From the NCBI GenBank assembly GCA_037481935.1, contig JBBFKQ010000002.1, positions 62,001 through 126,000 of the forward strand: a stretch of 64,000 nucleotides of DNA. The letters are read 5' to 3'. This document shows positions 12,349 through 32,656 of this stretch, in pieces. The stretch comes from Aquificaceae bacterium. GTDB lineage: Bacteria > Aquificota > Aquificia > Aquificales > Aquificaceae. The notes beneath the pieces were generated by a model. It ran no database searches. It was not told the origin of the DNA and saw nothing but the letters and a program-made list of their open reading frames with translations. Positions within the stretch are counted from its first letter, which is position 1. The number at the start of each line of letters is the position of its first letter. The position numbers and the translations under genes are program-made.

Positions 12349-12363
12349 GGGGGCTTTGCCCCC
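12349..12363 (+). terminator. GC hairpin after thiC
   Basis: GGGGGC-TTT-GCCCCC, identical to the one after acs, 8 nt after the thiC stop and only 1 nt before the first Pho repeat. It probably insulates the Pho promoter downstream; the following sequence TCTTAACC is not a clean T-run. Confidence 0.55.
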
Positions 12364-12364
12364 T

Positions 12365-12419
12365 CTTAACCAAATCTTAACCAAACCTTAAAGAAATCTT
12401 AACCTTTCTGCCCTATCCT
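12365..12419 (+). promoter_or_regulatory. Pho-box promoter A (four repeats) before the DUF2334 operon
   Basis: Four direct repeats with 4-nt spacers: CTTAACC (12365), CTTAACC (12376), CTTAAAG (12387), CTTAACC (12398). Then 9 nt and TATCCT (12414-12419), with the ATG 7 nt later. The 11-bp period and the repeats in place of a -35 element match the known layout of PhoB-activated promoters. The start codon falls where transcription should begin, so the mRNA may be leaderless. Confidence 0.8.
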
Positions 12420-12426
12420 TTTACCC

Positions 12427-13173
12427 ATGAAGCTCGCCATAGTGGAACTGCACGATGTGAGCCCCTACTACAGGGCTGAGTTTTTAGCCTCTCTTGAGCT
12501 TCTGGAGGAGGTGGGATTGCATAGATTTTCCCTCCTGGTGGTGCCCTACTTCTGGGAATGTGCACCTCTGGGAGGGGATATGGGCTTTTTAAGCCTTCTC
12601 AAAGGTCTTGATGCAGAGCTTTTGCTTCATGGCTATACGCACAGGGGCAGAAAGAGGCTTCAGCACATGCTCTGGACGGACGGGGAGGGAGAGTTTGGAG
12701 GGCTGGGACTGTCAGAAACCTATGAGAGGGTTCATGCAGGCCTGGAACTTATGGAACACTTTGGGCTAAAGACAAGGTTTTTCGTTCCGCCCGCTTGGAT
12801 AGGAAACCCATATCTTGAGGACGTGCTCTATTCTCTTGGCTTTATGGGTGTGGCTTACCGCTGGCACATAAAAGACCTGAAGGCAGAAAGGGCCATAAGG
12901 TCCCCGGTCCTCACCTTCAGCAACAGGCACCTTTTTTCCTGGCTCAGCCTGAAGGTTGTCCCAAACATTGAAAAGATTTACAGCAATCATGACCTTCTCA
13001 GGCTTGCACTCCATATGGCAGATTTTAGAGATGAAAGAAAGGTAAGACTGTGGAGGGATATACTCTGCAGGATAAAAAACAGCAGGAGGTTAACCAGCTA
13101 TGGGGAAATACTTGGCAAAGGCGGACCTTCACCTTCACTCAAAGGCCTCCAACCTGCCGGGGGGCTGGTTTAG
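12427..13173 (+). CDS. DUF2334 / polysaccharide deacetylase-like protein
   Basis: 248 residues, no signal peptide. It opens with LAIVELHDVSPYYRAEF, where the His-Asp resembles the metal-binding start of the NodB-like fold, and has LLHGYTHRG for the second metal motif. The DUF2334 family is assumed to be deacetylases of unknown substrate. It is the first gene of a Pho-box operon with two glycosyltransferases and PsiE, so a role in envelope glycolipid or polysaccharide remodelling under phosphate stress is inferred. Its 3' end overlaps the next gene by 74 nt. No Shine-Dalgarno precedes the ATG. Confidence 0.75.
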   Translation: MKLAIVELHDVSPYYRAEFLASLELLEEVGLHRFSLLVVPYFWECAPLGGDMGFLSLLKGLDAELLLHGYTHRGRKRLQHMLWTDGEGEFGGLGLSETYERVHAGLELMEHFGLKTRFFVPPAWIGNPYLEDVLYSLGFMGVAYRWHIKDLKAERAIRSPVLTFSNRHLFSWLSLKVVPNIEKIYSNHDLLRLALHMADFRDERKVRLWRDILCRIKNSRRLTSYGEILGKGGPSPSLKGLQPAGGLV

Positions 13174-15346
13174 CAGGCTCGTAGGATGCCCAGAGAGCTT
13201 TACAGAGCCTCTTGAGATATACAGAAGGCTAAAAGAGAGAGGCATGAGCTTTGTAACCATAACGGACCACAATACCGTAAGCGGAGTTCTTGAGATAGCT
13301 CACATGCCCGAGGTTTTCATAAGTTGCGAATATACGGTGGAGATACCTGAAGAAAGGGGTAAGGTGCACGTGCTGGTGTATGGCATTACAGAATCACAGC
13401 ATCAGGACCTTCTCAGGCTCAGAGAAAACATCTACGACTTTGTCCCTTATCTCAAGTCTTATAGAATAGCCCATTCACTTGCCCATCCCCTCTACTCTGT
13501 TCAGGGCACAAGGGTGAGCAGGAGTCTTGTGGAAAAGCTTGTGCTTCTCTTTGATAACTGGGAGGTGATAAACGGAACAAGGGGTGACGGAGTCAGATAC
13601 ATAGAGGAGACCATAGCCCGTGCTTACGATGGATGGGACAGAATACACTATCTGGCCGAAAGGCACAGAATTGAACCTCAGAGGACAAGAGAAAGAATAG
13701 CCTTTACCGCAGGCTCTGACGACCACGGTGGTATGGATGTGGGCAGAACATGGACAGGGGTTGAGGGGGCAACCACCAGAGAAGATTTCCTGAAAGGCCT
13801 ATGGGAGGGTAGAACGCAGGTGGGCACAGAAGAACTTGGCGATAAGAGGCTTCTAAATATGGTGTGTAGAGTTGGTTATGACTTTCTGAGGAGCAAAAAC
13901 CATATACCCTCTGAAGTAAAGCCTATTACCGACTACCTTTTTATGCATTCAGACAATCCAGTGGTAGGTATGCTTCTGAGGAATTTTTTAAGTATAAAGG
14001 CAGAAAGGGTGGACCTCCTGAGGGAGATAGCAAAAAAGCTGCCCTCTTTTACCTTAGAGAGATTTTTGAAAAGCCCCTCACCGCAAACCATCGGGGAGCT
14101 GTGCCTGTCCCTCATGGCTCATGGCTTCCCCGCCTTTTTAAAATACGCCCAGAGAAAAGAAGAGCAGAAGATAAAGGCTCTTGGAAAGGAGTTTGGAATA
14201 GTCAACGGAAAAACACCAAAGGTTGCCTACCTTACAGATACATACCACCACATAAACGGCGTTGCAAGAAGCAATAAGCTAATAAGAGAGATAGCTCTTG
14301 AAGAAGAACTGCCCTTTACTGTGGTTATATCCAGCTCGCAGGTTATGGAGGAGGAGAACCTGGTAAACCTCCAGCCCCTTTTTGAACTGCCCACGCCCTT
14401 CTATGAAGAGTTAAGGATGGGAGTGCCCAACCTCATAGAGTTCATGGACTTTCTTGAGAGGGAGGGCTTTACTCAGGTTCACATAGCCACACCCGGACCT
14501 CTGGGTCTTATGGGCCTTCTTCTGGGTAAGCTTCTTGGTCTAAGAGTAACCTTTGCCTTCCATACGGACATACCATCTTACGCAAAAACCTACACAGGAG
14601 ACTCAGAGTTGGAAGAAATGCTCTGGAAAGCCTTCCTTTTCCTCGGCAACATATCCGACAGGTTCTTTGTTCCCTCAGAACACTACAGAAAGATTTTTGT
14701 AAGCAGGGGGCTAAACTACGGCAAGATAAGCACCTTCAGGCGTGGCGTTGATACTGAGTTATTCTCCCCTGACAAGAAAAGCGACGACTTCTGGACCGAA
14801 AGGCTTGGAGTCAAAAGGCATCAGAAAGTTATCCTCTATGTAGGAAGAGTCTCAAAGGAAAAGGGTCTGGACAAATTCCTTTACGCAGCAAGATGCTTCC
14901 CTGAGGATGTTTTTGTGGTGGTGGGAGATGGTCCCTACAGGAAGGAGCTCGAAAACAAAAAGCCAAAAAACATGCACCTGGTGGGCTATATGGTGGGGGA
15001 AGAGCTTGCAAAAGCCTACGCAAGCTCTCATGTCTTTCTCTTCCCCTCTGAGACGGAGACCTATGGACAGGTGGTTCTGGAAGCGATGGCAAGCGGACTT
15101 CCAGTAATAGTTAGCTCAAGAGGTGCTTCTCACGAGCATGTGCAGGAAGGAGTGAACGGTTTTATAGCCACAAGGACAGAAGAATTCGTGGAAAAGCTCT
15201 CCCTTCTCATATCCAAAGAAGAAATGAGAAGAAACATGTCGCAGGAAGCCCTCTACTATGCAAAAAGCCTTGACATGAGAAAAACCTACATAGATTACAT
15301 GTTAGCCATAGCAGGTCTCGGGAGGCTTGTCCATGAAGCTTGTTGA
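13100..15346 (+). CDS. PHP-domain / GT4 glycosyltransferase fusion
   Basis: 748 residues. The N-terminal third is a PHP metallohydrolase-like domain (KADLHLHSKAS, TITDHNT, GSDDHGG). After a helical linker (~240-370) comes a GT-B fold glycosyltransferase of family 4 (~371-740) starting VAYLTDTYHHINGVARS, with ETYGQVVLEAMASGLPV near the donor site. The glycosyltransferase half resembles SqdX/SQD2-type lipid glycosyltransferases and mannosyltransferases. The ATG at 13100 lies inside the previous gene but has AGGAGGT 9 nt before it, which supports the long overlap. Likely a cytoplasmic-face enzyme; the acceptor is unknown. Confidence 0.85.
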   Translation: MGKYLAKADLHLHSKASNLPGGWFSRLVGCPESFTEPLEIYRRLKERGMSFVTITDHNTVSGVLEIAHMPEVFISCEYTVEIPEERGKVHVLVYGITESQHQDLLRLRENIYDFVPYLKSYRIAHSLAHPLYSVQGTRVSRSLVEKLVLLFDNWEVINGTRGDGVRYIEETIARAYDGWDRIHYLAERHRIEPQRTRERIAFTAGSDDHGGMDVGRTWTGVEGATTREDFLKGLWEGRTQVGTEELGDKRLLNMVCRVGYDFLRSKNHIPSEVKPITDYLFMHSDNPVVGMLLRNFLSIKAERVDLLREIAKKLPSFTLERFLKSPSPQTIGELCLSLMAHGFPAFLKYAQRKEEQKIKALGKEFGIVNGKTPKVAYLTDTYHHINGVARSNKLIREIALEEELPFTVVISSSQVMEEENLVNLQPLFELPTPFYEELRMGVPNLIEFMDFLEREGFTQVHIATPGPLGLMGLLLGKLLGLRVTFAFHTDIPSYAKTYTGDSELEEMLWKAFLFLGNISDRFFVPSEHYRKIFVSRGLNYGKISTFRRGVDTELFSPDKKSDDFWTERLGVKRHQKVILYVGRVSKEKGLDKFLYAARCFPEDVFVVVGDGPYRKELENKKPKNMHLVGYMVGEELAKAYASSHVFLFPSETETYGQVVLEAMASGLPVIVSSRGASHEHVQEGVNGFIATRTEEFVEKLSLLISKEEMRRNMSQEALYYAKSLDMRKTYIDYMLAIAGLGRLVHEAC

Positions 15347-16442
15347 TATAACACCTTATTTTCACAGCAGGAGCGGAGGCATAAGGAGGTATCTGCTTGA
15401 AAAAACAAAATATCTGCAGCAAAGGGGTGTGGAGCATGTGCTCATAGTTCCCGGCAGGGAGAGAAGAACATACTGCATAAATGCTACGAGAGTTTACGAA
15501 CTTCCCTCCTTCCCCCTCCCCCTCACTGGAGGTTACAGGTTCTTCTCCTCTTTCTCAGAGATAAGGGAGATACTGCAGAGGGAGGAGCCTGATGTGGTGG
15601 AGCTGGGCGGAACCTACCAGCCAGTAAACCATCTCAAGTCTGAAAGATACCTGCTGAGCGTTTTCTATCACTCTGACATAAGGACTGACCTGTCCCTGCT
15701 CCCTGCTCCGGAAAGGCTCAGAAAAGCCCTTCTGGAACATACCATAAAGAAGAAGCTCTCCAGGGCAGATATGATAATTACACCCTCAAGAGTGCAGGAA
15801 GAGTTTCTTAAGGCTTCGGGGCTTGAAAATGTGGTTACGGTAAACCTTGGAGTGGACACGGATGTGTTCAACCCGTCAAAGAGAGACCCATACTTTGACA
15901 GAGCTCTGGGCATAGGTGCGGGCAAGTTTAAACTACTATACTCTGGGAGGCTTTCACCGGACAAAAACGTAGACCTTCTTCTTGAAGTTTTCCAGCACCT
16001 TGACCCTACACTTTTCCACCTTGTTGTGGCGGGGGATGGTCCTGCAAGAAAAAAGGTGGAAAAACTCACCCAGAAGCTTCCTAACCTCACTTACTTGGGA
16101 TACCTTCACAGGGAGGAGGAACTTGCCAGGGTATATGCGAGCTGTGATGTTTTTGTGAGCACATCCTGCGGTGAAACCTATGGACTTGCCTTCCTTGAGG
16201 CTCAGGCATGTGGCTGTCTTCTGGTTGCCTTTGATATGGGTCTTGAAACCCAGCCCTTCAAAGAGTTTCTTGTGAGAGAGCCGACCCTGGAAGCCTTTTA
16301 CGACGCAATAATTCATGCATGCAATGCCTTAAGCCTTTCCAACAGAGAAAGGCTAAGCTCCTATGTTCAGAGGCACTTTTCATGGGAATCCACCTTTGAC
16401 AGGCTTCTCGGGGTTTACCGTGGAGTCCTTGCTCAGGTATAG
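15333..16442 (+). CDS. GT4 family glycosyltransferase
   Basis: 369 residues from the ATG 7 nt after GGGAGG (an in-frame TTG 6 nt earlier is less likely). GT-B fold: the N-terminal SRSGGIRRYLLE glycine-rich loop, then YSGRLSPDKNVDLLLEVF and the C-terminal ETYGLAFLEAQACG donor-binding motif. The start overlaps the PHP-GT gene by 14 nt. A second glycosyltransferase in the same Pho operon suggests two successive sugar additions. Lipid versus polysaccharide acceptor is not decidable from the sequence. Confidence 0.88.
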   Translation: MKLVDITPYFHSRSGGIRRYLLEKTKYLQQRGVEHVLIVPGRERRTYCINATRVYELPSFPLPLTGGYRFFSSFSEIREILQREEPDVVELGGTYQPVNHLKSERYLLSVFYHSDIRTDLSLLPAPERLRKALLEHTIKKKLSRADMIITPSRVQEEFLKASGLENVVTVNLGVDTDVFNPSKRDPYFDRALGIGAGKFKLLYSGRLSPDKNVDLLLEVFQHLDPTLFHLVVAGDGPARKKVEKLTQKLPNLTYLGYLHREEELARVYASCDVFVSTSCGETYGLAFLEAQACGCLLVAFDMGLETQPFKEFLVREPTLEAFYDAIIHACNALSLSNRERLSSYVQRHFSWESTFDRLLGVYRGVLAQV

Positions 16443-16866
16443 CCAGATAGTCAACCCCTCACTTGTGCTCTACTACAGCATAAGAGTTCTCACATACGGT
16501 GTTATATTCCTCGGGCTTTTTCTGCTTCTTGTGGAAATCTTCTCCATGGAGCTCAGCTTTGAAAATCTTGTCAAGAAACTCACAATAAGGATTCTTGAAC
16601 TCGTCATTCTTTATGAAATATTCAGGGCAGTGCTCGGCATATTTGAGTATCACAGGGTAAAACTTACTTTCCTTGTGGATGCCTCCATATCCTTCATGCT
16701 CAGAGAGCTTATCATAACGGTATACTCAGGAAAGCTTGATATTCATATGTCCATATCGATAGGTATCATAATGTTCATTCTGGCTCTTCTGAGGATAGTG
16801 GTAGTCAAATTTTCCCCCTCTTCAGAGACAAGGCAGGAAATACAAAAACCCTTAACAGAATCTTAA
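16420..16866 (+). CDS. PsiE-like phosphate-starvation-inducible membrane protein
   Basis: About 148 residues from a GTG at 16420; an ATG at 16363 would give 167 but overlaps the previous gene by 80 nt, so the start is uncertain. Four hydrophobic segments, with the pattern YSIRVLTYGVIFLGLFLLL, ILYEIFRAVLGIFEYHRV and LRELIITVYSG, as in E. coli PsiE. PsiE is a membrane protein of unknown function induced by phosphate starvation. Its position in an operon with a Pho-box promoter supports both assignments. Its stop codon lies inside a repeat of the next Pho promoter. Confidence 0.75.
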   Translation: MESLLRYSQIVNPSLVLYYSIRVLTYGVIFLGLFLLLVEIFSMELSFENLVKKLTIRILELVILYEIFRAVLGIFEYHRVKLTFLVDASISFMLRELIITVYSGKLDIHMSISIGIIMFILALLRIVVVKFSPSSETRQEIQKPLTES

Positions 16867-16883
16867 CAATTCTCGGTTAAACT
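16851..16883 (+). promoter_or_regulatory. Pho-box promoter B before the 68-residue gene
   Basis: CTTAACA (16851), GAAT, CTTAACA (16862), 9 nt, TAAACT (16878-16883), then 7 nt to the ATG at 16891. The second repeat contains the TAA stop of the PsiE-like gene. The gene after it has no ribosome site and is probably leaderless. Confidence 0.78.
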
Positions 16884-16890
16884 ATTCAGC

Positions 16891-17097
16891 ATGAAGGAGA
16901 GGATTGATAGCCTCATTCAGGAGATTGAGAGGGAGAAGGACTGCTACAGAAGGTTTCTGAGGAAAGGGGAGAGGCTCAGGAAGCGAGAAAGAGACACCTT
17001 CCTCACCGAAAAGGATAGAACCATACTGATAGAGTCCTTTGTGGTGGGTGGGCTTCTGGAAAACCTTATAACAAAGGCAGTAAACAGACTCTTTTAG
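16891..17097 (+). CDS. Small charged helical protein, Pho-box controlled
   Basis: 68 residues, not recognised. The first ~48 residues are very rich in Lys, Arg and Glu and look like a coiled coil (IQEIEREKDCYRRFLRKGER); the tail (IESFVVGGLLENLITKAVNR) is amphipathic. It has its own Pho-box promoter 7 nt away and overlaps the convergent SCP2-like gene by 4 nt at the 3' end. The dedicated promoter argues that it is a real gene. Confidence 0.6.
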   Translation: MKERIDSLIQEIEREKDCYRRFLRKGERLRKRERDTFLTEKDRTILIESFVVGGLLENLITKAVNRLF

Positions 17098-17948: not shown

Positions 17949-20033
17949 TCACCTCCTTTGGGGTTTTTGTAATGAATATATACCCAACAGCACGGTAGTG
18001 CCGTTGTTTATGAGGGTTGAAACAGATGGCCCGATAAGCCCCAGGGCTGAGCCTATCAGACCTATAGTATTTATAAGGCCGTTAAGCCTGTATGTGGTTT
18101 TGAGCTTCTTTACGGTGTGCTCCGCAATGTCCACCACATCCACCAGGTGCCAGAGGCTATCCCCGATGACGATGTCCGCCACCTCTATGGCTATGTCGGT
18201 TCCGCTCCTGAGGGAAATGCCCACGTCTGAGGAGGAAAGGGCTGGTGAATCGTTTACACCATCACCAACAAAGGCCACCACCCTTCCCTGTTTTTTAAGC
18301 TTTTCCACAACCTTTGCCTTCTCTGCAGGGAAAACCCTTGCGTAAAATTCTTCCAGACCAAGCTCCTTTGCCATATATCTGGCTATACCTTCGTTGTCCC
18401 CAGTGCAAAGTATGACCTTCTTACCCCTCTTTCTGAGCTCAGCAACCACATCCTTTGCCTCTTCTCTGAGTGGGTCTCTGAAGGTGAGAAGACCAACTAT
18501 TTTCCTTTCCCTCACAAGATAGAGAACGGACTTCGCCTCGGAGTGAAACTTATCCACAAGGTCTCTAACTTCCTGACTTATCCTTATCCTCTTCCTTTGC
18601 ATAAAACGGGTGCTTCCCAGCATGAACTTTGTTCCATTCAGCTCACCCTCTATACCCAGTCCTATGTGATACTGGGAGTTTTCTCTTGGGACAAGTTCCA
18701 GCCCCCTATCCTCTGCCAGCTTCACTATCGCCCTTGCCACCGGATGGGTTATCCTCTGTTCAAGGGAGGCGGCGTATCTGAGGGTTTCTTCTTCAGAAAT
18801 CTCAAGCCCCACCACATCCTCAACCACTGGATGCCCCACCGTTAGTGTTCCCGTCTTGTCCATGACAAAGGTGTCAACCCTTGAGAGGGCTTCCAGCTTT
18901 CCACCGCTCTTTATGAGTATGCCGTAAGTGGAGGCCTGTGCCACACTGGATAGCACCGTAAGAGGCGTTGTAAGATGAATACCCGTGTGGTAGTCTATGA
19001 TAAGTGTGGAGGTGAGCCTTCCCACCTGACCGCTGAGAAGGTAAGACAGCGTGCCAAGGCCAACGGTCGGCATCACAAGCCTGTTGGCGGTCTCTTCTGC
19101 CATCTTCTGTATGTTTATGGGCTCTTTTATGCTCTCCTCCACGATTTTTGCGATTTTTGCCACCACCGTTTCTTCTCCCACCTCTTCTACCCTTACGTAA
19201 AGTTTACCATCTTCAACGAAGGTGCCCGCAAAAACCTTATCGCCCACCTTTTTGTGAACCGGGTTTGACTCTCCCGTCAGGGATGCCTGGTTTACGAGAG
19301 CATCCCCTTCCTCCACTACACCGTCTGCAGGAATCTTTTCCCCGGCGTAGACAGCTATCAGGTCGCCCTTTTTAAGGTCAAGGGCCTTTATCTTTATAAC
19401 CTGACCATTGCCTATAAGGAGCCATGCAGTATCCTCCTTGTAGGAGAAGAGCTTTTCAATCTTTTCATAAGCCTTTTTCTCTACCCTTTCGGAGAGGTAA
19501 TCGCCAAGAGCCAGCAGGAATACCATGGTATGTGCAGAAAGTGGGTTCCCTGTGAGGCTTGCCAGCACTATGGCTGAGGAATCAAGAAAGTGAACATCAA
19601 GCTTTCTTCCTCTGAGGGAGCTTATAGCCTTTTCAAATATGGGCTTTGAGAGGAGCAGGGTCATGCCTGCGAGAAGTGGACCGGGAATTACGCCCCTCAG
19701 GAGGTATGGCAGAAAACCAGCGGTGCTCAGCATTAGCCAGCGAGATGTCCCCGTATCTTTCTTGTGAACACTCGCCCTTTCCCTTGAGAGGTCTTCAAGG
19801 AAAACATCCCTTGGTGTGTTCTCAATGTGGCTGAGAAACTCTATGAGGTCAAAGCTCTGAGGGTCATATTCAAGAATTAGTCTTCCTGAAGTTCTTGAGT
19901 AGCTTACCTTCCTTACGCCCCCAAACCTTGAAAAATAAGACTTGAGCGTTTCATCTGGATGGTGTAAATACTGAAAGAGGTATGATGTGAGCCTGAGCCT
20001 TCCAGGAGAGAGCCTTTCTACCCTGTAGGTCAT
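17949..20033 (-). CDS. P1B-like heavy-metal P-type ATPase with atypical membrane motif
   Basis: 694 residues. N-terminal domain (~1-80) resembles a degenerate heavy-metal-associated fold without CXXC. Actuator motif TGES at 253-256, phosphorylation motif DKTGT at 392-396, the HP locus THPVARAI near 429 (a P1B trait), and GDGVNDSPAL near the end. In the transmembrane helix where P1B pumps carry CPC, this protein reads IDYHTGIHLTTP (347-351 DYHTG), so Cys-Pro-Cys is absent. Ion and direction are therefore unknown. It is the fourth gene of a Pho-box operon; a role in ion balance under phosphate limitation is inferred. Confidence 0.85.
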   Translation of the reverse strand: MTYRVERLSPGRLRLTSYLFQYLHHPDETLKSYFSRFGGVRKVSYSRTSGRLILEYDPQSFDLIEFLSHIENTPRDVFLEDLSRERASVHKKDTGTSRWLMLSTAGFLPYLLRGVIPGPLLAGMTLLLSKPIFEKAISSLRGRKLDVHFLDSSAIVLASLTGNPLSAHTMVFLLALGDYLSERVEKKAYEKIEKLFSYKEDTAWLLIGNGQVIKIKALDLKKGDLIAVYAGEKIPADGVVEEGDALVNQASLTGESNPVHKKVGDKVFAGTFVEDGKLYVRVEEVGEETVVAKIAKIVEESIKEPINIQKMAEETANRLVMPTVGLGTLSYLLSGQVGRLTSTLIIDYHTGIHLTTPLTVLSSVAQASTYGILIKSGGKLEALSRVDTFVMDKTGTLTVGHPVVEDVVGLEISEEETLRYAASLEQRITHPVARAIVKLAEDRGLELVPRENSQYHIGLGIEGELNGTKFMLGSTRFMQRKRIRISQEVRDLVDKFHSEAKSVLYLVRERKIVGLLTFRDPLREEAKDVVAELRKRGKKVILCTGDNEGIARYMAKELGLEEFYARVFPAEKAKVVEKLKKQGRVVAFVGDGVNDSPALSSSDVGISLRSGTDIAIEVADIVIGDSLWHLVDVVDIAEHTVKKLKTTYRLNGLINTIGLIGSALGLIGPSVSTLINNGTTVLLGIYSLQKPQRR

Positions 20034-20233
20034 TCTGTTTTGCTCTCCTGCTGAAGCTTGAGCTCAAGGGCTTTCACCATTGCCTCAATCTCTCTCTGGG
20101 TCTCTTCCAGCCTTCTCTTTTCCTTTGCCCTGTCAAGCATGTAGAAGGCAAGCACCCCAAGACCAAAGCCAAGGGCAAAACTGAAAGGACCTGAACATAC
20201 TGCCTTTCCAAGTAGTGAAGTTATGTTGTTCAT
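20030..20233 (-). CDS. Small membrane-anchored coiled-coil protein
   Basis: 67 residues: one transmembrane helix near the N-terminus (FSFALGFGLGVLAFYML) followed by a charged coiled coil (KEKRRLEETQREIEAMVKAL). GAGGAGGTG ribosome site; overlaps the ATPase start by 4 nt. With the 104-residue protein upstream it forms a pair of single-span helical proteins that may associate with the pump. No family assigned. Confidence 0.65.
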   Translation of the reverse strand: MNNITSLLGKAVCSGPFSFALGFGLGVLAFYMLDRAKEKRRLEETQREIEAMVKALELKLQQESKTE

Positions 20234-20245
20234 GTTTTCACCTCC

Positions 20246-20560
20246 TCACAGTCTTTCCTTTATTCTCTGCAGAATTTCTTGCTGTTTCTGGAGAACTTCA
20301 AGCTTTTTCTCCACCTCAAGCCTGTAGAGGTGCTTAGCTTCAGATACCACATCTTCCCAGAACTCCTTTCCTTCCTCAAGATTTCCCGTGAGCCACTGCT
20401 GGAAGGCTATGACCTCCTTGGTGGTGGATACAAGGAAAGGTCTTGCGTCTCTCATGAGCCTACTGAGGACCACAAGCCCTGCAATGGCACCAAAGCCATA
20501 AAGCATCATGTTGGTTGAAAGGCACCCACCTATGGTGCTTGGAATGCTGACGTTAAACAT
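20246..20560 (-). CDS. Membrane-anchored helical protein (possibly DUF5132-like)
   Basis: 104 residues: one hydrophobic helix (MMLYGFGAIAGLVVLSRLM), then a long cytoplasmic helical region ending in EKKLEVLQKQQEILQRIKER. AAGGAGGT ribosome site before the ATG at 20560. Small proteins of this shape accompany P-type ATPases with DYxTG-type motifs in my recollection, but I cannot confirm the family without a search. Confidence 0.6.
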   Translation of the reverse strand: MFNVSIPSTIGGCLSTNMMLYGFGAIAGLVVLSRLMRDARPFLVSTTKEVIAFQQWLTGNLEEGKEFWEDVVSEAKHLYRLEVEKKLEVLQKQQEILQRIKERL

Positions 20561-20571
20561 GCCTTACCTCC

Positions 20572-20946
20572 TTATAGCTTATTCTTTAAATATGGTATAA
20601 GAAACATACTGCAGACTGCAAAGGAAATAAGCCCCACATTCCACCCAAGAAGAGCCATGCTAAAGCCCAGCTTTACTGCAGGATGTTTCAAAAAGGGCTG
20701 AATATAAAAATGCAGGTCTTCCCTTTCCAGCTTCTGGGGTGCTCTGCCACCCTTGAGGTTTTCAATGATGTAGTGGAAAAAACTCCCTTCTCTGAACTTC
20801 ACAAGAAGCGTTCTTGTGTTTTCTTTGTATTCAACCCCCTCAACCCCCTCCACCCCGTTCATGCCACGCAGAAACAGGTCCCTCTCTGCAACACTTGAGA
20901 AGTAAAGCCTTGCTTCACCTCTTCTGAGGGACACATATTCTATCAT
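20572..20946 (-). CDS. HMA_2-like domain protein with C-terminal membrane helix
   Basis: 124 residues. The N-terminal ~65 resemble a ferredoxin-like heavy-metal-associated fold lacking CXXC (GEARLYFSSVAERDLFLRGM... LLVKFREGSFFHYIIENL), similar in plan to the N-terminus of the P-type ATPase downstream. The tail holds hydrophobic stretches (LGFSMALLGWNVGLISFAVC). A repeat GVEGVEGVE lies in the first loop. First gene of the Pho-box ATPase operon; the -10 TATAAT is 8 nt from the ATG and there is no Shine-Dalgarno, so probably leaderless. Confidence 0.65.
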   Translation of the reverse strand: MIEYVSLRRGEARLYFSSVAERDLFLRGMNGVEGVEGVEYKENTRTLLVKFREGSFFHYIIENLKGGRAPQKLEREDLHFYIQPFLKHPAVKLGFSMALLGWNVGLISFAVCSMFLIPYLKNKL

Positions 20947-20954
20947 TAGGGAAG

Positions 20955-20987
20955 ATTATAAAGTAGGATTGTTAAGATTTGGTTAAG
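20955..20987 (-). promoter_or_regulatory. Pho-box promoter C of the P-type ATPase operon
   Basis: Read on the minus strand: CTTAACC (20987-20981), AAAT, CTTAACA (20976-20970), 9 nt, TATAAT (20960-20955), 8 nt, ATG. The first repeat contains the TAA stop of the CZB-like gene upstream. Confidence 0.8.
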
Positions 20988-24482: not shown

Positions 24483-24515
24483 CTTAACGAAAACTTAACA
24501 CTCTGGGGGTAAACT
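24483..24515 (+). promoter_or_regulatory. Pho-box promoter D of the GTPase/EAL-GGDEF operon
   Basis: CTTAACG (24483), AAAA, CTTAACA (24494), 9 nt, TAAACT (24510-24515). A 21-nt stretch with AAAGGAGGA precedes the ATG at 24537, so this mRNA has a short normal leader. Confidence 0.8.
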
Positions 24516-24536: not shown

Positions 24537-25043
24537 ATGGAGCTTTTCAAAAATCCTCAGGGACTTCTGGAAATTGTGACGGAGCAGGTGGGTCTTATCG
24601 GTGGGGAGATGGCCGGAAAAACCTTCCGCAGGCTTGTGGAAGAGCTCAATGGGACAGACCCGCTCGTAGCCATAGAGAGAAGCATCTCATACATCTTTGA
24701 CCGGGCTGGAAGCGTGCTTATGGGACATATAGGCAGGAGGGTTGCCCTTGAATCTCAGGCTCTTCACAACTTCTTCGGGCTTCCTACCAATGACTACAGG
24801 CTCAGCATGGAACTGAAATATCCCATAATTGACACTTTGAAAAACAATGGTATAGAGCCCACGAGAGGAATGCTGTGCTCTCTCTGCAAAGGTTACATGC
24901 AGGGGACTGCAGAAAGGATAAACCTTGGCAATCTCAGGGAGGTAGTTCACAGGGAGGGCGTATGCCAGTTTTTCTTTGGAGGTGAAGAAAATGGACCTGC
25001 TGGACTACAGCCTGAGCCAGCAAGAGCTGGAGGAAATAACTAA
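24537..25043 (+). CDS. V4R-like domain protein
   Basis: 168 residues. The second half resembles a V4R/4VR small-molecule-binding domain: CSLCKGYMQGTAERIN followed by VVHREGVCQFFFGG, with three cysteines spaced as in V4R proteins that bind metal or hydrocarbons. The first half is helical. First gene of a six-gene operon ahead of pst; as such it is a candidate sensor for the roadblock/GTPase pair. Assignment is by eye and moderate. It overlaps the roadblock gene by 53 nt. Confidence 0.6.
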   Translation: MELFKNPQGLLEIVTEQVGLIGGEMAGKTFRRLVEELNGTDPLVAIERSISYIFDRAGSVLMGHIGRRVALESQALHNFFGLPTNDYRLSMELKYPIIDTLKNNGIEPTRGMLCSLCKGYMQGTAERINLGNLREVVHREGVCQFFFGGEENGPAGLQPEPARAGGNN

Positions 25044-25440
25044 TAGGCTTCAGGATTTTAAAAACTCCCTTTTTCTTGAGCTTGTGGTGCTTATGGACGA
25101 TGGGGGGAGGCTTGTGAGCTATGCACCCTACGTGGATACTCTAAAACCCATGGTTCAGCGGGTCGCCATCGTAGGTGCGGCGGTTGTGGGTGCGGTGGAC
25201 CAGCTTGAGCATGTGATATCTTCCAAGAGAAACATGTATTTCTCTGGAGTAGACAAGAACATGTATGTGCACGTGATAGACCAAAAGTTTCTGCTTGCAT
25301 CGGTCTTTAATCATAAGGTTCCTCTCGGAAGCGTCAAGCTCATGAAAGAAAGACTGTCAAGAGAGATAGGGGAAATACTTAAAAGGGCGAGAAGCAGAAA
25401 CCAGAAAAAGGTGGTAAGGTTTGAGGACCTTGCTATATGA
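24991..25440 (+). CDS. Roadblock/LC7 domain protein
   Basis: 149 residues from the ATG preceded by TGGAGGTGAA; an in-frame TTG 15 nt earlier overlaps the ribosome site and is not the start. The roadblock core is ELVVLMDDGGRLVSYAPY, then a helix and KNMYVHVIDQKFLLASVF. Such proteins (MglB-like) act as GTPase-activating or scaffold partners of small GTPases, and an MglA-like GTPase follows with a 4-nt overlap. The last ~25 residues are basic. Confidence 0.82.
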   Translation: MDLLDYSLSQQELEEITNRLQDFKNSLFLELVVLMDDGGRLVSYAPYVDTLKPMVQRVAIVGAAVVGAVDQLEHVISSKRNMYFSGVDKNMYVHVIDQKFLLASVFNHKVPLGSVKLMKERLSREIGEILKRARSRNQKKVVRFEDLAI

Positions 25441-25967
25441 ACCTGCGCATACTTTACCACGGACTTGGTATGGCGGGCAAAACCACAAACCTTGAAAAGC
25501 TCAGGGAAATATATGCCTCCTTTGTAAATGACAGGCTTCATCAGCAGACCACCGAAGGCAGGACCGTTTACCTTGACATACTCGCTCTTAACCTCAAAAC
25601 AAAGACAGGTAATGAAGAGGTAGAGGTGAGCCTTTTCACCACTCCAGGACAGGAAAGGTTCAAAATTCTCAGAAAGTGGATATTTGGACATGTGGATGGG
25701 CTTGTGATGGTGTTAGATTCCTCCAGAAGTCTTGAGGAGAATCTCAAGGCTTACCAGGAGCTGGAAGAATACGGACTTACTTCCCTGCCGGTAGTGGTTC
25801 AGGCGAACAAGCGGGATGCAGACAACCCCATTCCTATGGAAGAAATATCAAGGGCCTTTGACGGCCTTAAAGTGCTGGAAGCGATTGCGAAGGATGGGCT
25901 GGGTGTTGCAGAGACTTTCAGGGCAATTATCAGGGAGGTTCTCCATGCAAAGGCTCATGCTGGCTGA
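25437..25967 (+). CDS. MglA-like small Ras-family GTPase
   Basis: 176 residues. G1 is GLGMAGKTTN, G3 is TTPGQERF and G4 is NKRD (QANKRDAD); the aspartate of the usual DxxG is replaced by TPGQ as in MglA and Arf/Gtr-related bacterial GTPases. MglA proteins with roadblock partners set cell polarity and motility in Myxococcus and Thermus. Here the pair sits in a Pho-box operon with an EAL-GGDEF protein. Polarity or motility output under phosphate stress is an inference. Confidence 0.88.
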   Translation: MNLRILYHGLGMAGKTTNLEKLREIYASFVNDRLHQQTTEGRTVYLDILALNLKTKTGNEEVEVSLFTTPGQERFKILRKWIFGHVDGLVMVLDSSRSLEENLKAYQELEEYGLTSLPVVVQANKRDADNPIPMEEISRAFDGLKVLEAIAKDGLGVAETFRAIIREVLHAKAHAG

Positions 25968-26733
25968 GCTAAGCCTCAAGCTCAGGCCTCTTTATGGACC
26001 CTTTCACAGGGACATGGTGAACGTCTCATGGCTCACGGAAACGGTTAGCAGTTCTCTCAGGTCAGGCTACTTTATGCTTCAGAGTCTGGAAGGACTTGAG
26101 TTCGTTCCAGTGCTTGAAGGAAGGTTAAAAGGTGCTCTGTCAGAAGAATTTGAGCTTATTAGCTTTTACTCCACACTTGAAAACTTCGTTGTGCATGCTT
26201 TTGAACTTTACGAGAAGTATCGTCTTCCACTTTACAGCGACAGACCCCTCTGGGTGAACTTAGAGAGCATAAACTTCAACATAAGGGAGTTTTTTAAAAA
26301 ACTTCAAGATTTTGAGGTCACAGGCTTTATGCTGGTGGACAACAGGGTAAAGCTCATAAGGGGAACACTGCTTTTGCAGAAAGGCTTGGTGGTGGGAGCC
26401 CATTACGCAGAAGAAAGTGGCAGGAACGCTCTCGTAAAGATTATTGAGGACCTCGGCAAAGACATGTGCTCCATGAAGGTGTATGAGATACCCGAGGAGC
26501 TACTTTCCTTTCTCTTACTTGACTGTGAACTTGCCGGTCTGTATCAGAGCTTTGAAGACGTGCCTTTCAAAAGCCTTTCTGGAACTGCTATTGTGGTAAG
26601 CGTATCGCCTGAAAAGTATGGATACCTTATTTTCTCTCAGGGTGAGGAGGTTTTCAGCGAAGGCTTTGAAGAAGACGCACCTTTTATGAGCTTTTGCTAC
26701 CTTCAGGAGTTGTGGCATCCGTGGAACCCATGA
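25945..26733 (+). CDS. Uncharacterised protein of the GTPase operon
   Basis: 262 residues from the ATG after GGGAGGTT (a longer frame to 25816 lies inside the GTPase gene). No family recognised with confidence. The middle (INFNIREFFKKLQDFEVTG... GTLLLQKGLVVGAHY) resembles DUF4388-like modules in which a short helix precedes a beta hairpin, and which occur beside MglA and response regulators. It overlaps the GTPase gene by 23 nt and the next gene by 4 nt (ATGA). Confidence 0.65.
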   Translation: MQRLMLAELSLKLRPLYGPFHRDMVNVSWLTETVSSSLRSGYFMLQSLEGLEFVPVLEGRLKGALSEEFELISFYSTLENFVVHAFELYEKYRLPLYSDRPLWVNLESINFNIREFFKKLQDFEVTGFMLVDNRVKLIRGTLLLQKGLVVGAHYAEESGRNALVKIIEDLGKDMCSMKVYEIPEELLSFLLLDCELAGLYQSFEDVPFKSLSGTAIVVSVSPEKYGYLIFSQGEEVFSEGFEEDAPFMSFCYLQELWHPWNP

Positions 26734-27182
26734 ACCCTCTTGAATTTATTCCCGATGACAGAAGTTTAAGGATAGTAAAGTATGACCCAGAACATCCCAT
26801 ACTCTACTTCTGCCCAGCCTGCTGGAGCACCGTTTCAAAGGACGATAAAGTGTGTCCTAACTGCGGATATGACCTTACAGAGTTCCATCAGCTTCCATAC
26901 GAATACAAGCTCATAATGGCCCTTGAACATCCAGTGAAGGACATGAAAAAGAACGTTATATACACAGTGGGAAGAAAAGACTTAGAGCTTGCCCTGCCTC
27001 ACTTTGAGCTGATGGTAAACAGGGAAACAGACCCCATAATACTTATGGAGATTGCGGACGCTCTTTCGAGGATGAGCTCGCCAGAAGCCACAAACCTCCT
27101 GAGAAAACTGGCGCAGCACCGCTACCCTGTGGTGCGTTCAAGGGCTATCATGCACCTTCAGAAGAGAATCAGCGATGTATAA
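26730..27182 (+). CDS. Zinc-ribbon / HEAT-repeat protein
   Basis: 150 residues. A double CXXC zinc ribbon (FCPACWSTVSKDDKVCPNCGYDL, cysteines near 28, 31, 42 and 45) is followed by two or three HEAT-like helical pairs (TDPIILMEIADALSRM, EATNLLRKLAQHRYPVVRSRA). Start chosen from the 4-nt ATGA overlap; the ribosome site is weak. Probably a protein-interaction adaptor in the GTPase/c-di-GMP operon. Confidence 0.72.
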   Translation: MNPLEFIPDDRSLRIVKYDPEHPILYFCPACWSTVSKDDKVCPNCGYDLTEFHQLPYEYKLIMALEHPVKDMKKNVIYTVGRKDLELALPHFELMVNRETDPIILMEIADALSRMSSPEATNLLRKLAQHRYPVVRSRAIMHLQKRISDV

Positions 27183-28941
27183 CACTGGGTTAAAATCCCT
27201 TGTAAAAAGGGAGTTTCTTGAAAGAATAAAGATAAAGCCCCATTATCAGCCCATAGTAGACTTGAGTTCGGGAGACATACACGGCTACGAGGCACTGAGC
27301 AGGTTTGAGCTGGATGGGAAGAACTTTAGTCCATTGAAAATCTTCAGCATGGCTAAGGATATTGACGCAGCATCGGAGCTTGACCTTATGTGCAGGAAAG
27401 TTGCCCTTGAAAACTTTCCAAGGGACCTGAAGGGCAAACTCTTCCTGAATGTATACCCATCCTATCTTGTGTCTGAATACATGGGGAAGGGGCACACCAT
27501 GAGCTATGTGCTTGAGTCTGGCTTTAATCCCCGCAGCGTAGTCCTAGAACTCACAGAAGCAGAAAAGGTGCAGGATATGAGGCTTTTAAAGGGTGCCCTA
27601 AGCCACTACAAGGATATGGGCTTTCATGTTGGCATAGACGACATAGGCACGGGCTTTAACTCCCTTGAACACCTCTTAAACCTTGAGGGGCTACTAGACT
27701 ACGTAAAGCTTCCGAGGGAGCTTATAAATGGCGTTTCAAGAAGCAAAATAAGACATAGTCTTATAAAGGTTCTTACGGAGGTGTCCCTCAGTATAGGTGC
27801 AAGGCCCATATACGAGGGGCTCGAAAAGCAAGAAGACCTTCTTGTGCTCTGTCAGGACTTTGACGCCCACCTCTTTCAGGGTTTCTACTTCTCATTACCC
27901 CTTTCTCCAGAAGATTTGAGAAACTTCAAGCTGGAGGCGAGACTGTGTCTGTGTTCTCAGGATAAGGGTCTGCACGGCGTAGACTTGCGTATCCTCCATG
28001 TTAAAGGTGAGGAGAAGTTTGGCTCATTTCTGGAAAGAGTAGAAGAGTTTCAGGACAGGTATACTCTTCTGGATATGGATGGAAACTTATACCTTCTTGA
28101 CCTGTGGAAGTTAAAAAGCCAGCTTAACCACATAAAAAGGAACCTTTATTACTACAGGAACATCAGAGAAGCTACAGGTCTTATGAAGGAGGTCTTTGTG
28201 AGCGTTGAAAACCTACCAGAGGTAGACACGAGCAATTCTAACTTAAGGAACCTCTTTGACCTGGTTACCTCCTCAGACTGGGAGGTTTTTGTCCTTGGAA
28301 AGGGGAATGGTGCTCTGAGGGTGATTGAAAAGCATAACCTTATAGACTACCTTCACAGGAAGCTCACAAAGGAACTTCTTGAGAGCAACCCCCTAACCCA
28401 ACTGCCAGGAAACAGGTCTATAGAGGAGACCATAAAAAGACTGGGAAATTCTGGCTATGACTTCTATGTCTGTTATCTTGACATAGACAACTTTAAAGCC
28501 TTTAACGACGCCTACGGTTTTTATGCGGGGGACCAGATGATAAAAAAGGTGGGCTTTCTGCTCAAAAACTTTGAGAGCGAGAACGTTGGCAGGGTCTTTG
28601 TAGGGCATGTAGGAGGAGATGACTTTGTCCTTATACTCTGGGATACTGCCCTGGAGGATGTAAAAGGCAAACTATTTGAGCTATTAAAGAACCTGAAGGC
28701 GAACCTCCTTGAGTTTTACAGTCCTGAAGACATACAGAGAGGCTACTTTATGGCAAGGAGCAGGGAGGAGGAAATAAGAGAGTTTCCCCTGGCGGATGTT
28801 TCCATGGTGCTCGTGAAGGGCTCTCCTGACCCACTGGACATATCCAGAAGGTCTGCTCAGCTCAAGAAGAAAGCAAAGTCTGTAAGAGGCAGTGTGCTTG
28901 TGGTGGAGGGTCTTAACGAAATCTTAACAATTGACCTGTAA
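27175..28941 (+). CDS. EAL-GGDEF c-di-GMP signalling protein
   Basis: 588 residues with the unusual order EAL first (~10-250), GGDEF last (~410-570). EAL side: GYEALSRF, NVYPSYL, VLELTEAE, DDIGTGFNS, all motifs close to those of active phosphodiesterases. GGDEF side: the signature is GGDDF in HVGGDDFVLIL, with DIDNFKAFND before it, so cyclase activity is plausible but uncertain. A linker (~265-400) has no obvious domain. No membrane segments. It closes the Pho-box D operon, and its last nine codons and stop double as the pstS promoter. Confidence 0.88.
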   Translation: MYNTGLKSLVKREFLERIKIKPHYQPIVDLSSGDIHGYEALSRFELDGKNFSPLKIFSMAKDIDAASELDLMCRKVALENFPRDLKGKLFLNVYPSYLVSEYMGKGHTMSYVLESGFNPRSVVLELTEAEKVQDMRLLKGALSHYKDMGFHVGIDDIGTGFNSLEHLLNLEGLLDYVKLPRELINGVSRSKIRHSLIKVLTEVSLSIGARPIYEGLEKQEDLLVLCQDFDAHLFQGFYFSLPLSPEDLRNFKLEARLCLCSQDKGLHGVDLRILHVKGEEKFGSFLERVEEFQDRYTLLDMDGNLYLLDLWKLKSQLNHIKRNLYYYRNIREATGLMKEVFVSVENLPEVDTSNSNLRNLFDLVTSSDWEVFVLGKGNGALRVIEKHNLIDYLHRKLTKELLESNPLTQLPGNRSIEETIKRLGNSGYDFYVCYLDIDNFKAFNDAYGFYAGDQMIKKVGFLLKNFESENVGRVFVGHVGGDDFVLILWDTALEDVKGKLFELLKNLKANLLEFYSPEDIQRGYFMARSREEEIREFPLADVSMVLVKGSPDPLDISRRSAQLKKKAKSVRGSVLVVEGLNEILTIDL

Positions 28942-28944
28942 ACT
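28912..28944 (+). promoter_or_regulatory. Pho-box promoter E of pstSCAB
   Basis: CTTAACG (28912), AAAT, CTTAACA (28923), 9 nt, TAAACT (28939-28944), whose TAA is the stop codon of the EAL-GGDEF gene. pstS has a 29-nt gap with AAGGAGGT. As pst is a classic PhoB target, this site anchors the interpretation of the other four. Confidence 0.85.
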
Positions 28945-28973: not shown

Positions 28974-29978
28974 ATGAGAAAGAGGATGCTCAAGACGGCT
29001 GTCCTTTCAATGGGAGCTATAGCTCTCATGTCAGTGCCTGCCAAGGCACAGCAGGTAATCAAGATTGACGGCTCTTCCACCGTCTATCCCATAACGGAGG
29101 GCGTGGCAGAGGAGTTCCAGAAGGCTAAGAAGGGTGCGGTAAAGGTCACTGTGGGTATCTCCGGAACAGGTGGTGGCTTCAAGAAGTTCTGCAGAGCTGA
29201 AACAGACATATCCAACGCCTCAAGGCCCATCCTTGCAAAGGAGATGGAGGAGTGCAGGAAGAACGGCGTTCAGTATATTGAGCTCCCAGTGGCCTACGAC
29301 GGTCTTGCCGTGGTGGTAAACCCCAGAAACAACTGGGCAACATGCATGACGGTGGAACAGCTGAAGGAAATCTGGAAGCCCGAGTCTCAGGGCAAAAAGT
29401 TCATGTGGTCAGACCTTGACCCCAAATGGCCCAGAGAAGAGATAAAGCTCTGCGGTCCTGGCTCTGACTCTGGAACCTTTGACTACTTTACGGAGGCAAT
29501 AGTGGGTAAAGCAAAGGCTTCAAGGGGTGATTACCTTGCCTCCGAAGATGACAATGTGCTGGTGCAGTTTGCCCAGAGGGAAAGGGGAGCCATATGCTAC
29601 TTTGGACTTGCCTATGTGGAAGAGAACAAGGGTAAGGTGAAGGCAATTCAGATTAAGAACCCCAAGACGGGTCAGTGTGTGGCACCCACTTATGATACAG
29701 TTCAGAAGGGTACCTATCAGCCCCTTTCTAGGCCTCTCTTCATATACGTGAACGCAAAGGCAGTTCAGGAAAGACCTGAAGTCAGAGAGTTTGTGGAGTT
29801 CTATCTTAAAAATGCTGGAAAGATATCCAAGCAAGTGGGCTACATAGCACTACCCGACAGAGCTTATAAACTTGCCGAGGAAAGGTTCAACAAGAGAGTG
29901 CTTGGCACCGTCTTTGGCGGTGAGCCCGAGGTGGGTTTGACAATAGATGAGCTCCTCAAGAGGGAAGCCAAGCAATGA
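28974..29978 (+). CDS. pstS: Periplasmic phosphate-binding protein
   Basis: 334 residues with a signal peptide (basic RKRMLK, hydrophobic core, AKAQQ cleavage region). Phosphate ligand motifs are visible: [16 protein letters not shown] and SGTFDYF. It captures phosphate for the PstCAB importer. Strong ribosome site. Four cysteines in the mature part are unusual compared with E. coli PstS and may form disulfides. It overlaps pstC by 4 nt. Confidence 0.96.
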
Positions 29979-30898
29979 CCCTTTCTCTTGGTGCAAAAAA
30001 GGCAATAGACATCGCCCTGTATGCCTTCCTTATGGTGATGGGGGCGGTGTCGGTCTTTGTAACCTTTGCCATAGTATGGGTTCTCGTTGGAGACACGATA
30101 AAGTTCTTCACCCACCCCGAAGGGGGTGGCTTCCCCACCTCCCTTATAAGGTTTTTTACGGAAACACAGTGGACGCCCACCTTTTACAACAAACAGATAG
30201 GCATATGGCCGCTTGTCAATGGCACCTTTTTGATAGCTCTTATATCCATGATAGTGGCTGTTCCCCTTGGAATAGCGGTTGCAGTTTATTTGAGTGAGTA
30301 TGCAAGCTGGAAGGTGAGAGAAACAGTAAAGCCTTGGCTTGATTTTCTTGAGGCTGTTCCTACAGTTGTTTATGGCTACTTTGCCCTCCTGCTGGTTACA
30401 CCTGTTCTTCAGAAATTCTTTTCCCTCTTTGGTATAGCCATGGAAGGTATGAACGCCCTGTCTCCTGGAGTAGTCATAGGAATAATGATACTTCCCTACA
30501 CCGCCTCCATGATAGAGGATTCTTTCAAAGGAGTCCCCCAGTATCTCAGGGAGGCATCTTATTCACTTGGGGCTTCGAAGCTCAGGACTGCCCTTCTTGT
30601 AGTCCTTCCCGCTGCAAAGTCAGGGGTGCTTTCAGCATATCTTCTTGGCTTTTCAAGGGCAATAGGTGAAACTATGGTGGTGGCTGTGGCCGCTGGCATG
30701 TATCCCCAGATTACTGCCAATCCCCTCCAGCCCATACAGACCATAACTGGATACATCGTTCAAGTGGCCCTTGGAGACCTGCCCTTTGGCTCCTTTGAGT
30801 ATCTTTCCATATTTGCTGCGGGTTTTACACTCTTTGCTATTACGCTCCTTCTAAATTCCATAGCGGTTTATCTGAAATCTAAAGCAGTGGGGTATTAA
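29975..30898 (+). CDS. pstC: Phosphate ABC transporter permease PstC
   Basis: 307 residues, six transmembrane helices. The EAA loop is REASYSLGASKLRTALLVVLPAAKSG, normal for PstC; FLEAVPTVVYGYFALLLV is a family block. Works with PstA and PstB to import phosphate. One nt before pstA. Confidence 0.95.
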   Translation: MTLSLGAKKAIDIALYAFLMVMGAVSVFVTFAIVWVLVGDTIKFFTHPEGGGFPTSLIRFFTETQWTPTFYNKQIGIWPLVNGTFLIALISMIVAVPLGIAVAVYLSEYASWKVRETVKPWLDFLEAVPTVVYGYFALLLVTPVLQKFFSLFGIAMEGMNALSPGVVIGIMILPYTASMIEDSFKGVPQYLREASYSLGASKLRTALLVVLPAAKSGVLSAYLLGFSRAIGETMVVAVAAGMYPQITANPLQPIQTITGYIVQVALGDLPFGSFEYLSIFAAGFTLFAITLLLNSIAVYLKSKAVGY

Positions 30899-30899
30899 G

Positions 30900-31844
30900 A
30901 TGGAACAGAGTATTGAAGTCAAAGGAGAGCTGGAAACGAGGCTGAAGGATTTTGATATAGAAGCCTACATAAAGGGTGTAAGGAAAAGAGACAGAATTTT
31001 TGAAGCTGTGGGTATGATAGCCACTTTTCTTGTGCTTCTTTTTCTGTTTGCAATAGCCGTAGACCTCCTAATTGATGGATGGGTGAGGATAAAGGACCCA
31101 GGTTTCTACACCTCTTACCCCTCAAGGTTTCCCGAGCAGGCAGGCATACTTTCCTCCTGGGTAGGAACGGTCTATGTGATGCTCGGAGCCATATTCTGGG
31201 CTGTGGTGCTTGGAATTCCTGCAGGCATATACCTTGAAGAGTATGGTGGTAAGGGGAAGATAGCAAGAATAATAGAGGCAAACATTTCTAATCTTGCTGC
31301 TGTTCCATCTATAGTGTACGGTCTTTTAGCTCTTGGCGTGTTTGTTTACAGGTTTGAGTTTGGTGAGAGTGTCCTGACAGCAGGGCTTACCCTTGGGCTT
31401 CTGATGCTTCCGGTTGTTGTGGTTGCTACAAGAGAATCCATAAGGAGGATACCCAGGTCCATTAGGGAGGCCGCCTATGCCCTTGGAGCCACAAGGTGGG
31501 AAACCCTTTTCCATCACATACTACCCTACTCGCTTGGAGGAATATTCACCGGTCTCATAATCGCAGCTTCAAGGGCAATCGGGGAAACCGCACCTCTTAT
31601 AACCATAGGAGCTCTCACCTTTATAGCCTTCCTACCTCCAGCGCCTTGGGAGGACTTTTTGGGTATGCTCAAGTCCCCCTTTACAGTTCTTCCCATACAG
31701 ATGTACAACTGGGTTTCAAGGCCTCAGGAGGCCTTTCATACAAACGCGGCAGCGGCTGGCTTTATACTTCTAGTTATAGCCCTTCTTATGAACTCCATCG
31801 CCTTCTATCTGAGGTTTAAAGTAAGGAGGAAATACCAATGGTAA
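30900..31844 (+). CDS. pstA: Phosphate ABC transporter permease PstA
   Basis: 314 residues, six transmembrane helices after a ~40-residue charged N-terminus. EAA loop [26 protein letters not shown] and the block [16 protein letters not shown] identify it. Overlaps pstB by 7 nt. Confidence 0.95.
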
Positions 31845-32656
31845 ACCCTGCTAAAATGTTAGAAGAGAGGAAAGTGGTGCAGAGCACTGGTCCAATCAAT
31901 GTAAAACTTGAAGTAAGGAATTTTAACTTCCATTATGGGAACTTTCACGCCCTGAAGAACATAAACTTTCCCATTCACGAGAAAAGGGTAACCGCCATAA
32001 TAGGCCCCTCTGGCTGTGGAAAGACCACTCTTCTGAGAGCCTTCAACCGCATGCACGACCTCTATCCCGGTGCCCGCTACCAGGGGGAGATAGTTATGTA
32101 TCCAGACGGTATAAACCTTATAGATGGAAAAACAGACCCCCTCAGGGTGCGCATGCGCATAGGCATGGTCTTCCAGAAACCCAACCCCTTCCCAAAAAGC
32201 ATATACGAAAATGTGGCATATGGGCTGAAAATAAGGGGTATAAAGAACAAAAAGCTTCTGGACGAGGCAGTAGAAAAGGCCCTTGTGGGTGCAGCCCTCT
32301 GGGACGAGGTAAAGGATAGGCTCCATGTGAACGCCTACTCCCTTTCCGGTGGTCAGCAGCAGAGGCTGTGCATTGCAAGGGCAATAGCTGTAGAGCCTGA
32401 GGTGCTTCTCTTTGACGAGCCTACCTCTGCCCTTGACCCCATATCTACCGCCAAGATAGAGGACCTCATAGTGGAGCTAAAGCACAGGATTACCATAGTA
32501 ATCGTTACCCATAACATGCAACAGGCGGCAAGGATATCGGATTACACCGCCTTCATGTATCTTGGAGAGCTTGTAGAGTTTGGACCCACGGAGAAGATAT
32601 TCACAAAGCCCGAGAAGAAGCTCACAGAAGACTACATCACAGGAAGGTTTGGATAA
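31838..32656 (+). CDS. pstB: Phosphate ABC transporter ATPase PstB
   Basis: 272 residues. Walker [10 protein letters not shown], signature [14 protein letters not shown], Walker [15 protein letters not shown]-loop [13 protein letters not shown], all as in PstB. No phoU, phoB or phoR gene follows in the window. Confidence 0.97.

Follow-up and report, generated by a model that had tools for sequence, protein, structure and literature searches.

What brings a Ras-like GTPase, its roadblock partner and an enzyme of cyclic di-GMP (c-di-GMP) turnover together directly in front of a phosphate transporter? The question is raised by an operon in a 64,000-nucleotide stretch of DNA, here called the window, on contig 2 of the 1.69-Mb genome of an Aquificaceae-type organism. 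Its genes, A to F, and the pstSCAB genes behind them all lie on one strand in the list of open reading frames (ORFs) and overlap; the operon exists at the stated position and is conserved, and the sequence in front of it strongly supports Pho control. We propose, with about equal weight for and against, that it is a phosphate-starvation switch module whose Pho-driven B-C-DE(-F) genes would alter surface behaviour (DE being D and E taken together). The parts are as follows.

24483–24499, plus strand: Pho box of the operon, CTTAAC-N5-CTTAAC, exact match
24510–24515, plus strand: -10-like TAAACT of the operon, 10 nt past the Pho box
24537–25043, plus strand: gene A, a 168-amino-acid protein with conserved C-x2-C-x-G and, later, C-x-F
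24991–25440, plus strand: gene B, an MglB-like roadblock protein
25437–25967, plus strand: gene C, an MglA-type Ras-like GTPase
25945–26733, plus strand: gene D, a PATAN/DUF4388-like part, in a different frame from E in the window
26730–27182, plus strand: gene E, a zinc ribbon and HEAT repeats, joined to D in relatives
27175–28941, plus strand: gene F, an EAL domain, a middle region and a GGDEF domain (GGDDF)
28912–28928, plus strand: second Pho box, for pstSCAB, exact match within the end of F
28939–28944, plus strand: -10-like TAAACT of the pst promoter, overlapping the F stop codon, spacing again 10 nt
28974–32656, plus strand: pstS (TIGR02136, 8.8e-91), then pstC, pstA and pstB, named by gene order and reading

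The evidence for Pho control starts with the box itself. Exact copies of CTTAAC-N5-CTTAAC numbered nine in the 1.69-Mb source genome against none for the reversed control. They precede this operon, pstS, the PhoX gene (5e-144) and the PhoU gene (2.9e-50), the last standing with a histidine kinase; other exact copies precede a DUF2334-glycosyltransferase-PsiE-family operon, a P-type-ATPase operon and genes for a 68-amino-acid protein and a 214-amino-acid, exported-looking protein. Exact boxes also precede pstS, phoX and phoU in other genomes, where some stand before no recognised gene; the sole exact box of genome G050 lies 5' of a PstS gene. PhoB-like regulators are present, none of which passes the PhoB cut-off (best 235.7 versus 296.2 bits).

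Related loci come from the 136 genomes of the phylum that were searched, in which g8 denotes Thermocrinis, g4 Hydrogenobacter and f2 Hydrogenothermaceae/Sulfurihydrogenibium; g5 we take to be Hydrogenobaculum. A box with at most one mismatch lay within 120 bp 5' of the first module gene at 17 of 22 orthologous loci (8/8 in g1, 4/4 in g8, 4/5 in g4, 1/2 in g5 and 0/3 in f2), a count that leaves out the window itself, G128 and G104, as well as loci cut by contig ends (G034, G032, G098, G042, G043:C35 and G040). At 16 of the 17 loci of g1, g4 and g8 it stood 11–52 bp from the first gene. The background, 39 hits per 644,900 bp of both strands with the boxes themselves counted, corresponds to about 0.007 expected hits per 121-position interval. 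When 18 module promoters (17 relatives and the window) were aligned, a TANNNT followed the box at 10 nt, with its first T in 17/18, its A in 17/18 and its last T in 18/18; the promoter pattern is thus two CTTAAC half-sites 11 bp apart, 10 nt and TANNNT. The original prediction had put the operon under a Pho promoter and directly before pstSCAB, with a separate Pho promoter in the end of F, and on both points it stands: the first box is exact, set off by nine copies against none and kept in relatives of g1, g8 and g4, and the second is exact as well.

Several other boxes in the window may be recorded here. An exact match at 47311–47327 on the minus strand was rejected as a probable false positive, because the opposite strand reads there as the ribosome-binding site of the gene that starts at 47328; the box letters recur in G036 and G037. 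An array of CTTAAC at 11-bp steps in the 12354–16866 region precedes an operon of DUF2334, PHP/glycosyltransferase, glycosyltransferase and PsiE-family genes, which perhaps makes phosphate-sparing glycolipids. The end of the PsiE-family gene (16851–17097 region) holds a Pho box, with 10 nt to a TAAACT, that precedes the gene of the 68-amino-acid protein (16891–17097), and similar proteins of 60–69 amino acids stand behind exact boxes in G036, G029 and G052. The P-type ATPase operon (17949–20987) starts with a weakly KTSC-like gene and has its box at 20971 on the minus strand, and the same box-gene order is repeated in G036, G029 and G052.

Is the module tied to pst, or to the box? In genus g1 the order is A-B-C-DE-F-pst, and in all ten g1 relatives with a readable junction (G036, G037, G039, G040, G041, G042, G043, G044, G045 and G046) the end of F carries the second box and is followed by pst genes; in G039 and G046 the set of pst genes differs, except for pstB. 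A is missing from G044 and G045, and B and C are missing from G045 as well. In g4 and g8 the order is box-B-C-DE, without F and elsewhere than pst, and the box is kept by these distant modules in Thermocrinis (4/4) and Hydrogenobacter (4/5), so distance from pst does not go with loss of the Pho box in all relatives. The g5 order (G033) is box-small gene-DE-F, without B-C, and that of f2 is F-B-C-DE.

These arrangements bear on a different explanation, that the module has a PhoU-like role in adjusting phosphate uptake or Pho signalling itself, and not surface behaviour, c-di-GMP only reporting the state. Its position directly 5' of pst at every readable g1 junction would fit, as would the fact that the module does not track flagellin, which is absent from 5 (G025, G026, G027, G028 and G044) of the 16 genomes in which the module is intact (G000, G025–G028, G036, G037, G039, G041, G043, which is cut by a contig end, G044, G046, G050, G053, G055 and G056). 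However, in the 1,501-kb genome of G050 the module lies at 1,068 kb and pstS at 195 kb, the source genome has a separate Pho-boxed phoU, and we know of no MglA system that controls Pst; we consider this explanation unlikely. The same flagellin count led us to reject a flagellar role as a general reading and weakens the plain motility or polarity reading suggested by MglA–MglB pairs elsewhere.

The neighbourhoods also prompt the idea that the module steers a phosphate-sparing remodelling of the envelope (glycolipids, ornithine-type lipids), for instance by positioning glycosyltransferases or switching them on. Modules of g5 (L079–L081) and f2 (L048, L049) adjoin genes that read as glycosyltransferase-, PHP/glycosyltransferase-, DUF2334- and acyltransferase-like, and the DUF2334-glycosyltransferase operon of the window has its own Pho box at 12365. 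None of those neighbours occurs at the listed g4 and g8 loci, however, shared regulation by itself can gather Pho genes, and the lipid roles are putative; we consider such steering quite improbable.

For the phosphate-starvation switch, the GTPase pair is the core. Against solved structures, the profile of B found MglB (6h5b_B, 3.6e-14); the NCBIfam MglB model gave 1.5e-7, below the model cut-off, and Robl_LC7 matched 3 of 9 B members (best 4.2e-4). B stands directly upstream of C at all compared loci that have both, and with MglB homology and coupling to an MglA gene it can be classed by sequence as MglB-like. C has a Ras domain (3.9e-11), and its closest solved structure is MglA (3t12_A, 4.8e-24). 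The P-loop GxxxxGK[ST], the G4 motif [NT]KxD, present as NKxD, and an Arg beside the G2 Thr (RT; the intrinsic Arg finger) are kept in 16/16 aligned C sequences, and G3 reads TTPGQ or STPGQ in 16/16, neither the TVPGQ of Group 1 nor the GTPGQ of Groups 2–5 under the group definitions (P-loop, G4, Arg finger and G3 motif) in section 15 of PMC4316618. By these motifs C belongs to the MglA family, and because of its G3 it is not filed in Group 1; the combination of RT with TTPGQ or STPGQ is undescribed for Groups 1–5 in that section. B and C keep 60–73% identity within g1. A GTPase tree was set aside as evidence, since two paralogues of the source genome lie on long branches and make the deep joins unsafe.

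At the compared loci the pair always stands with DE and does not partner unrelated genes. D and E form one ORF of 385–436 amino acids in 22 of the 136 genomes; the split occurs solely in the window genome, by a frame change, and in G029. They are probably one gene, and the split in the window may be real or an assembly error. The original count of six overlapping genes is therefore probably five, while position, strand and overlaps stand. DUF4388 matched 5 of 11 D members (best 3.3e-4) and not the D protein of the window, and hhalign aligned D with the PATAN-like protein beside another mglBA pair of the family (96%, 4.9e-9). E matched HEAT_2 (4.7e-8) and Zn_ribbon_3 (2.5e-6). An AlphaFold model of a relative's DE (predicted local distance difference test, pLDDT, 81.6) found fold matches mainly to the HEAT part; no solved match was reported for the PATAN-like half, which says nothing on novelty. 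B-C-DE are co-located in families f1 and f2, DE-F in g5 and F-B-C-DE in f2, and because g5, without B-C, still has DE-F, DE appears from these gene orders to be the most constant part of the module.

A scan of named entries with two short peptide patterns, which distant forms may escape, returned 30 loci. Twelve match DE over most of its length, with titles naming only Aquificaceae, Aquificota, Thermocrinis, Hydrogenobacter, Sulfurihydrogenibium or Hydrogenothermaceae; of the rest, one (L102, uncultured bacterium) has the E part only and 17 are short zinc-ribbon stretches. The module is thus apparently confined to Aquificota.

Other GTPase sets occur in the phylum. The source genome has a second, ordinary roadblock-DUF4388-GTPase trio; in L051 (5744–9690), from the same genome, a third MglA-type gene is followed by genes for a 467-amino-acid PATAN-like protein (labelled by reading), an OmpR-type response regulator and a histidine kinase; and in genus g3 (L023, L027) an mglB-mglA pair follows a sensor-like gene, in L027 before the gene of a 377-amino-acid PATAN-like protein. 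Because the source genome has other roadblock/MglA sets with DUF4388/PATAN-like proteins, we regard the B-C-D trio as a variant of a known arrangement.

The last gene, F, matched EAL (7.8e-36) and GGDEF (1.8e-14). The residues E, N, E, DD, K, E and Q, which we take to be those of EAL catalysis, are kept in 15/15 F sequences, and the DD-x-G-T-G loop is changed in G044 and two f2 sequences. The EAL active site is intact by this comparison, and F is predicted to be a c-di-GMP phosphodiesterase. All 15 sequences have GGDDF in place of the diguanylate cyclase signature GG[DE]EF, so that F may or may not be a cyclase. The labels given earlier to B, C, E and F (roadblock, MglA-like, zinc-ribbon/HEAT and EAL-GGDEF) are all backed by these domain and profile matches.

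In the switch as we picture it, low phosphate would cause a PhoB-type regulator to turn the operon on, B would be the GTPase-activating partner of C, and the two would form a GTP switch. DE would be a scaffold or effector that reads C-GTP and links C to F, F would break down c-di-GMP, and its GGDDF domain might play a regulatory part by binding GTP. Surface behaviour (type IV pili, attachment or detachment) would then change with phosphate, with logic like that of RapA of Pseudomonas fluorescens. The fast-evolving A protein would serve as the input, perhaps by responding to a ligand or to the redox state through three conserved cysteines.

Several observations weigh against this switch. The DNA itself gives the promoter and the gene set, from which we infer expression, GTP hydrolysis, c-di-GMP turnover and phenotype. 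Sulfurihydrogenibium and its kin (f2) have no clear box at the module, the best candidates upstream of F having two to three mismatches; the f2 pstS promoters match the box no better. No F orthologue above the general EAL level was found in g4 or g8, and with B-C missing in g5 and G045 no gene pair is obligatory. In G029 the box, B and the P-loop part of C are gone, and the module is therefore dispensable. PilT occurs in 64/64 family genomes, and because it is universal its presence does not discriminate a role in type IV pili; pilT- and pilC-like genes directly follow the module in G026, a single case among nine g4/g8 loci with listed neighbours. Support is good for the regulation and composition of the module, but not for its output (pili, surface behaviour), which we infer.

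The modular losses of F or of B-C would also be expected if B-C-DE and F were phosphate-induced passengers with no joint mechanism. Against this stand a box kept across several genomic settings in three genera, the catalytic residues kept in C and F, and the homology between D and a PATAN-like protein that accompanies another mglBA pair, and we judge it very unlikely that the genes are passengers.

How far does the proposed switch resemble systems already described? The MglA–MglB polarity system of Myxococcus and Thermus likewise has an MglB-like gene directly before an MglA-type GTPase, and B and C are homologous to the solved MglB and MglA structures; here, in contrast, G3 is TTPGQ/STPGQ instead of TVPGQ, the promoter is Pho, the partners are DE and F, and any polarity or motility role is putative. 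PATAN proteins near MglA/MglB, as D is beside B and C, are reported in part of PMC4316618, which cites Makarova 2006 and calls such neighbours occasional; in the present module the PATAN part is fused to a zinc ribbon and HEAT repeats and joined by a c-di-GMP enzyme and a Pho box. The passages of PMC4316618 on MglA groups name neither a c-di-GMP nor a phosphate link. Its passages on Rup Group 1 describe small Ras-like GTPases adjoining c-di-GMP enzymes (diguanylate cyclase/phosphodiesterase fusion proteins); unlike C, Rup is not of the MglA family, its partners are OmpA-domain and coiled-coil proteins, and MglB is unnamed there. Actinobacterial conservons (CvnABCD), in the same source's account, are operons of a roadblock protein and an MglA-type GTPase, whereas the present operon is without the histidine-kinase-like cvnA gene and the G motifs differ. 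In the RapA/LapD/LapA circuit of P. fluorescens, phosphate limitation induces the c-di-GMP phosphodiesterase RapA, but a GTPase module is absent from the circuit as laid out in the relevant part of PMC3032545.

Searches of open-licence PubMed Central (PMC) papers found none that describes this combination. The original prediction that no described system has this composition holds for the whole and not for its parts, given the PATAN-mglBA neighbourhoods and Rup with a c-di-GMP enzyme in the sections of PMC4316618 cited above and RapA in those of PMC3032545. Precedents thus exist both for MglA–MglB–PATAN neighbourhoods and for c-di-GMP enzymes of low phosphate; what is new in the searched literature is a single Pho-controlled module that combines the two.

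MglA-type GTPases are known mainly for polarity and motility in a few bacteria, and the input of most members is not known. The input of this module can be read from the DNA as phosphate starvation, through a box common to pst, phoX and phoU, which makes it testable, and in one genus F is a testable output enzyme for a Ras-like GTPase module. Heat-stable proteins from a thermophile lineage also suit structural work. Taken together, the module suggests that phosphate hunger alters cell behaviour through a Ras-like switch.

What, finally, is gene A? It had been called V4R-like, a label that has fared poorly. By sequence A is confined to genus g1, with any match in 7 of the 136 genomes, one of them a spurious partial; a diverged copy also occurs in G046. 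Homologues are 24–45% identical to the window protein, and in their alignment an invariant C-x2-C-x-G is followed later by C-x-F. The V4R/Bet3 domain model of Pfam matched 0 of 6 A members at E values up to 5, and NCBIfam likewise gave nothing. A structure model (pLDDT 71; predicted template modelling score, pTM, 0.61) gave no Foldseek match under 0.001, and its weak fold matches were to TRAPP chains (Z 3.4–4.7; best 85 aligned, 3.9 Å), BcsD (5.8), MopR (4.3) and H-NOX (up to 4.5). V4R/Bet3 proteins carry two glycines, spaced by three residues, in their last helix (PMC2253512); A has a GxxxG past the Cys pair in 4 of 6 members, and a helix-2 pair is not evident. On the model, a Bet3/V4R fold for A is possible. 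It is rather unlikely that A, as a Bet3/V4R-type cysteine sensor, forms with B and C a bacterial counterpart of TRAPP–Rab exchange that gates F through a DE hub under phosphate starvation; if true, such a circuit would provide the first demonstrated case of c-di-GMP control by a Ras-like GTPase within the Pho regulon. The A motif also occurs in a 136-amino-acid protein of G028 (6.8e-6 over 46 columns), whose gene points away from the module and has a box-like site of its own.

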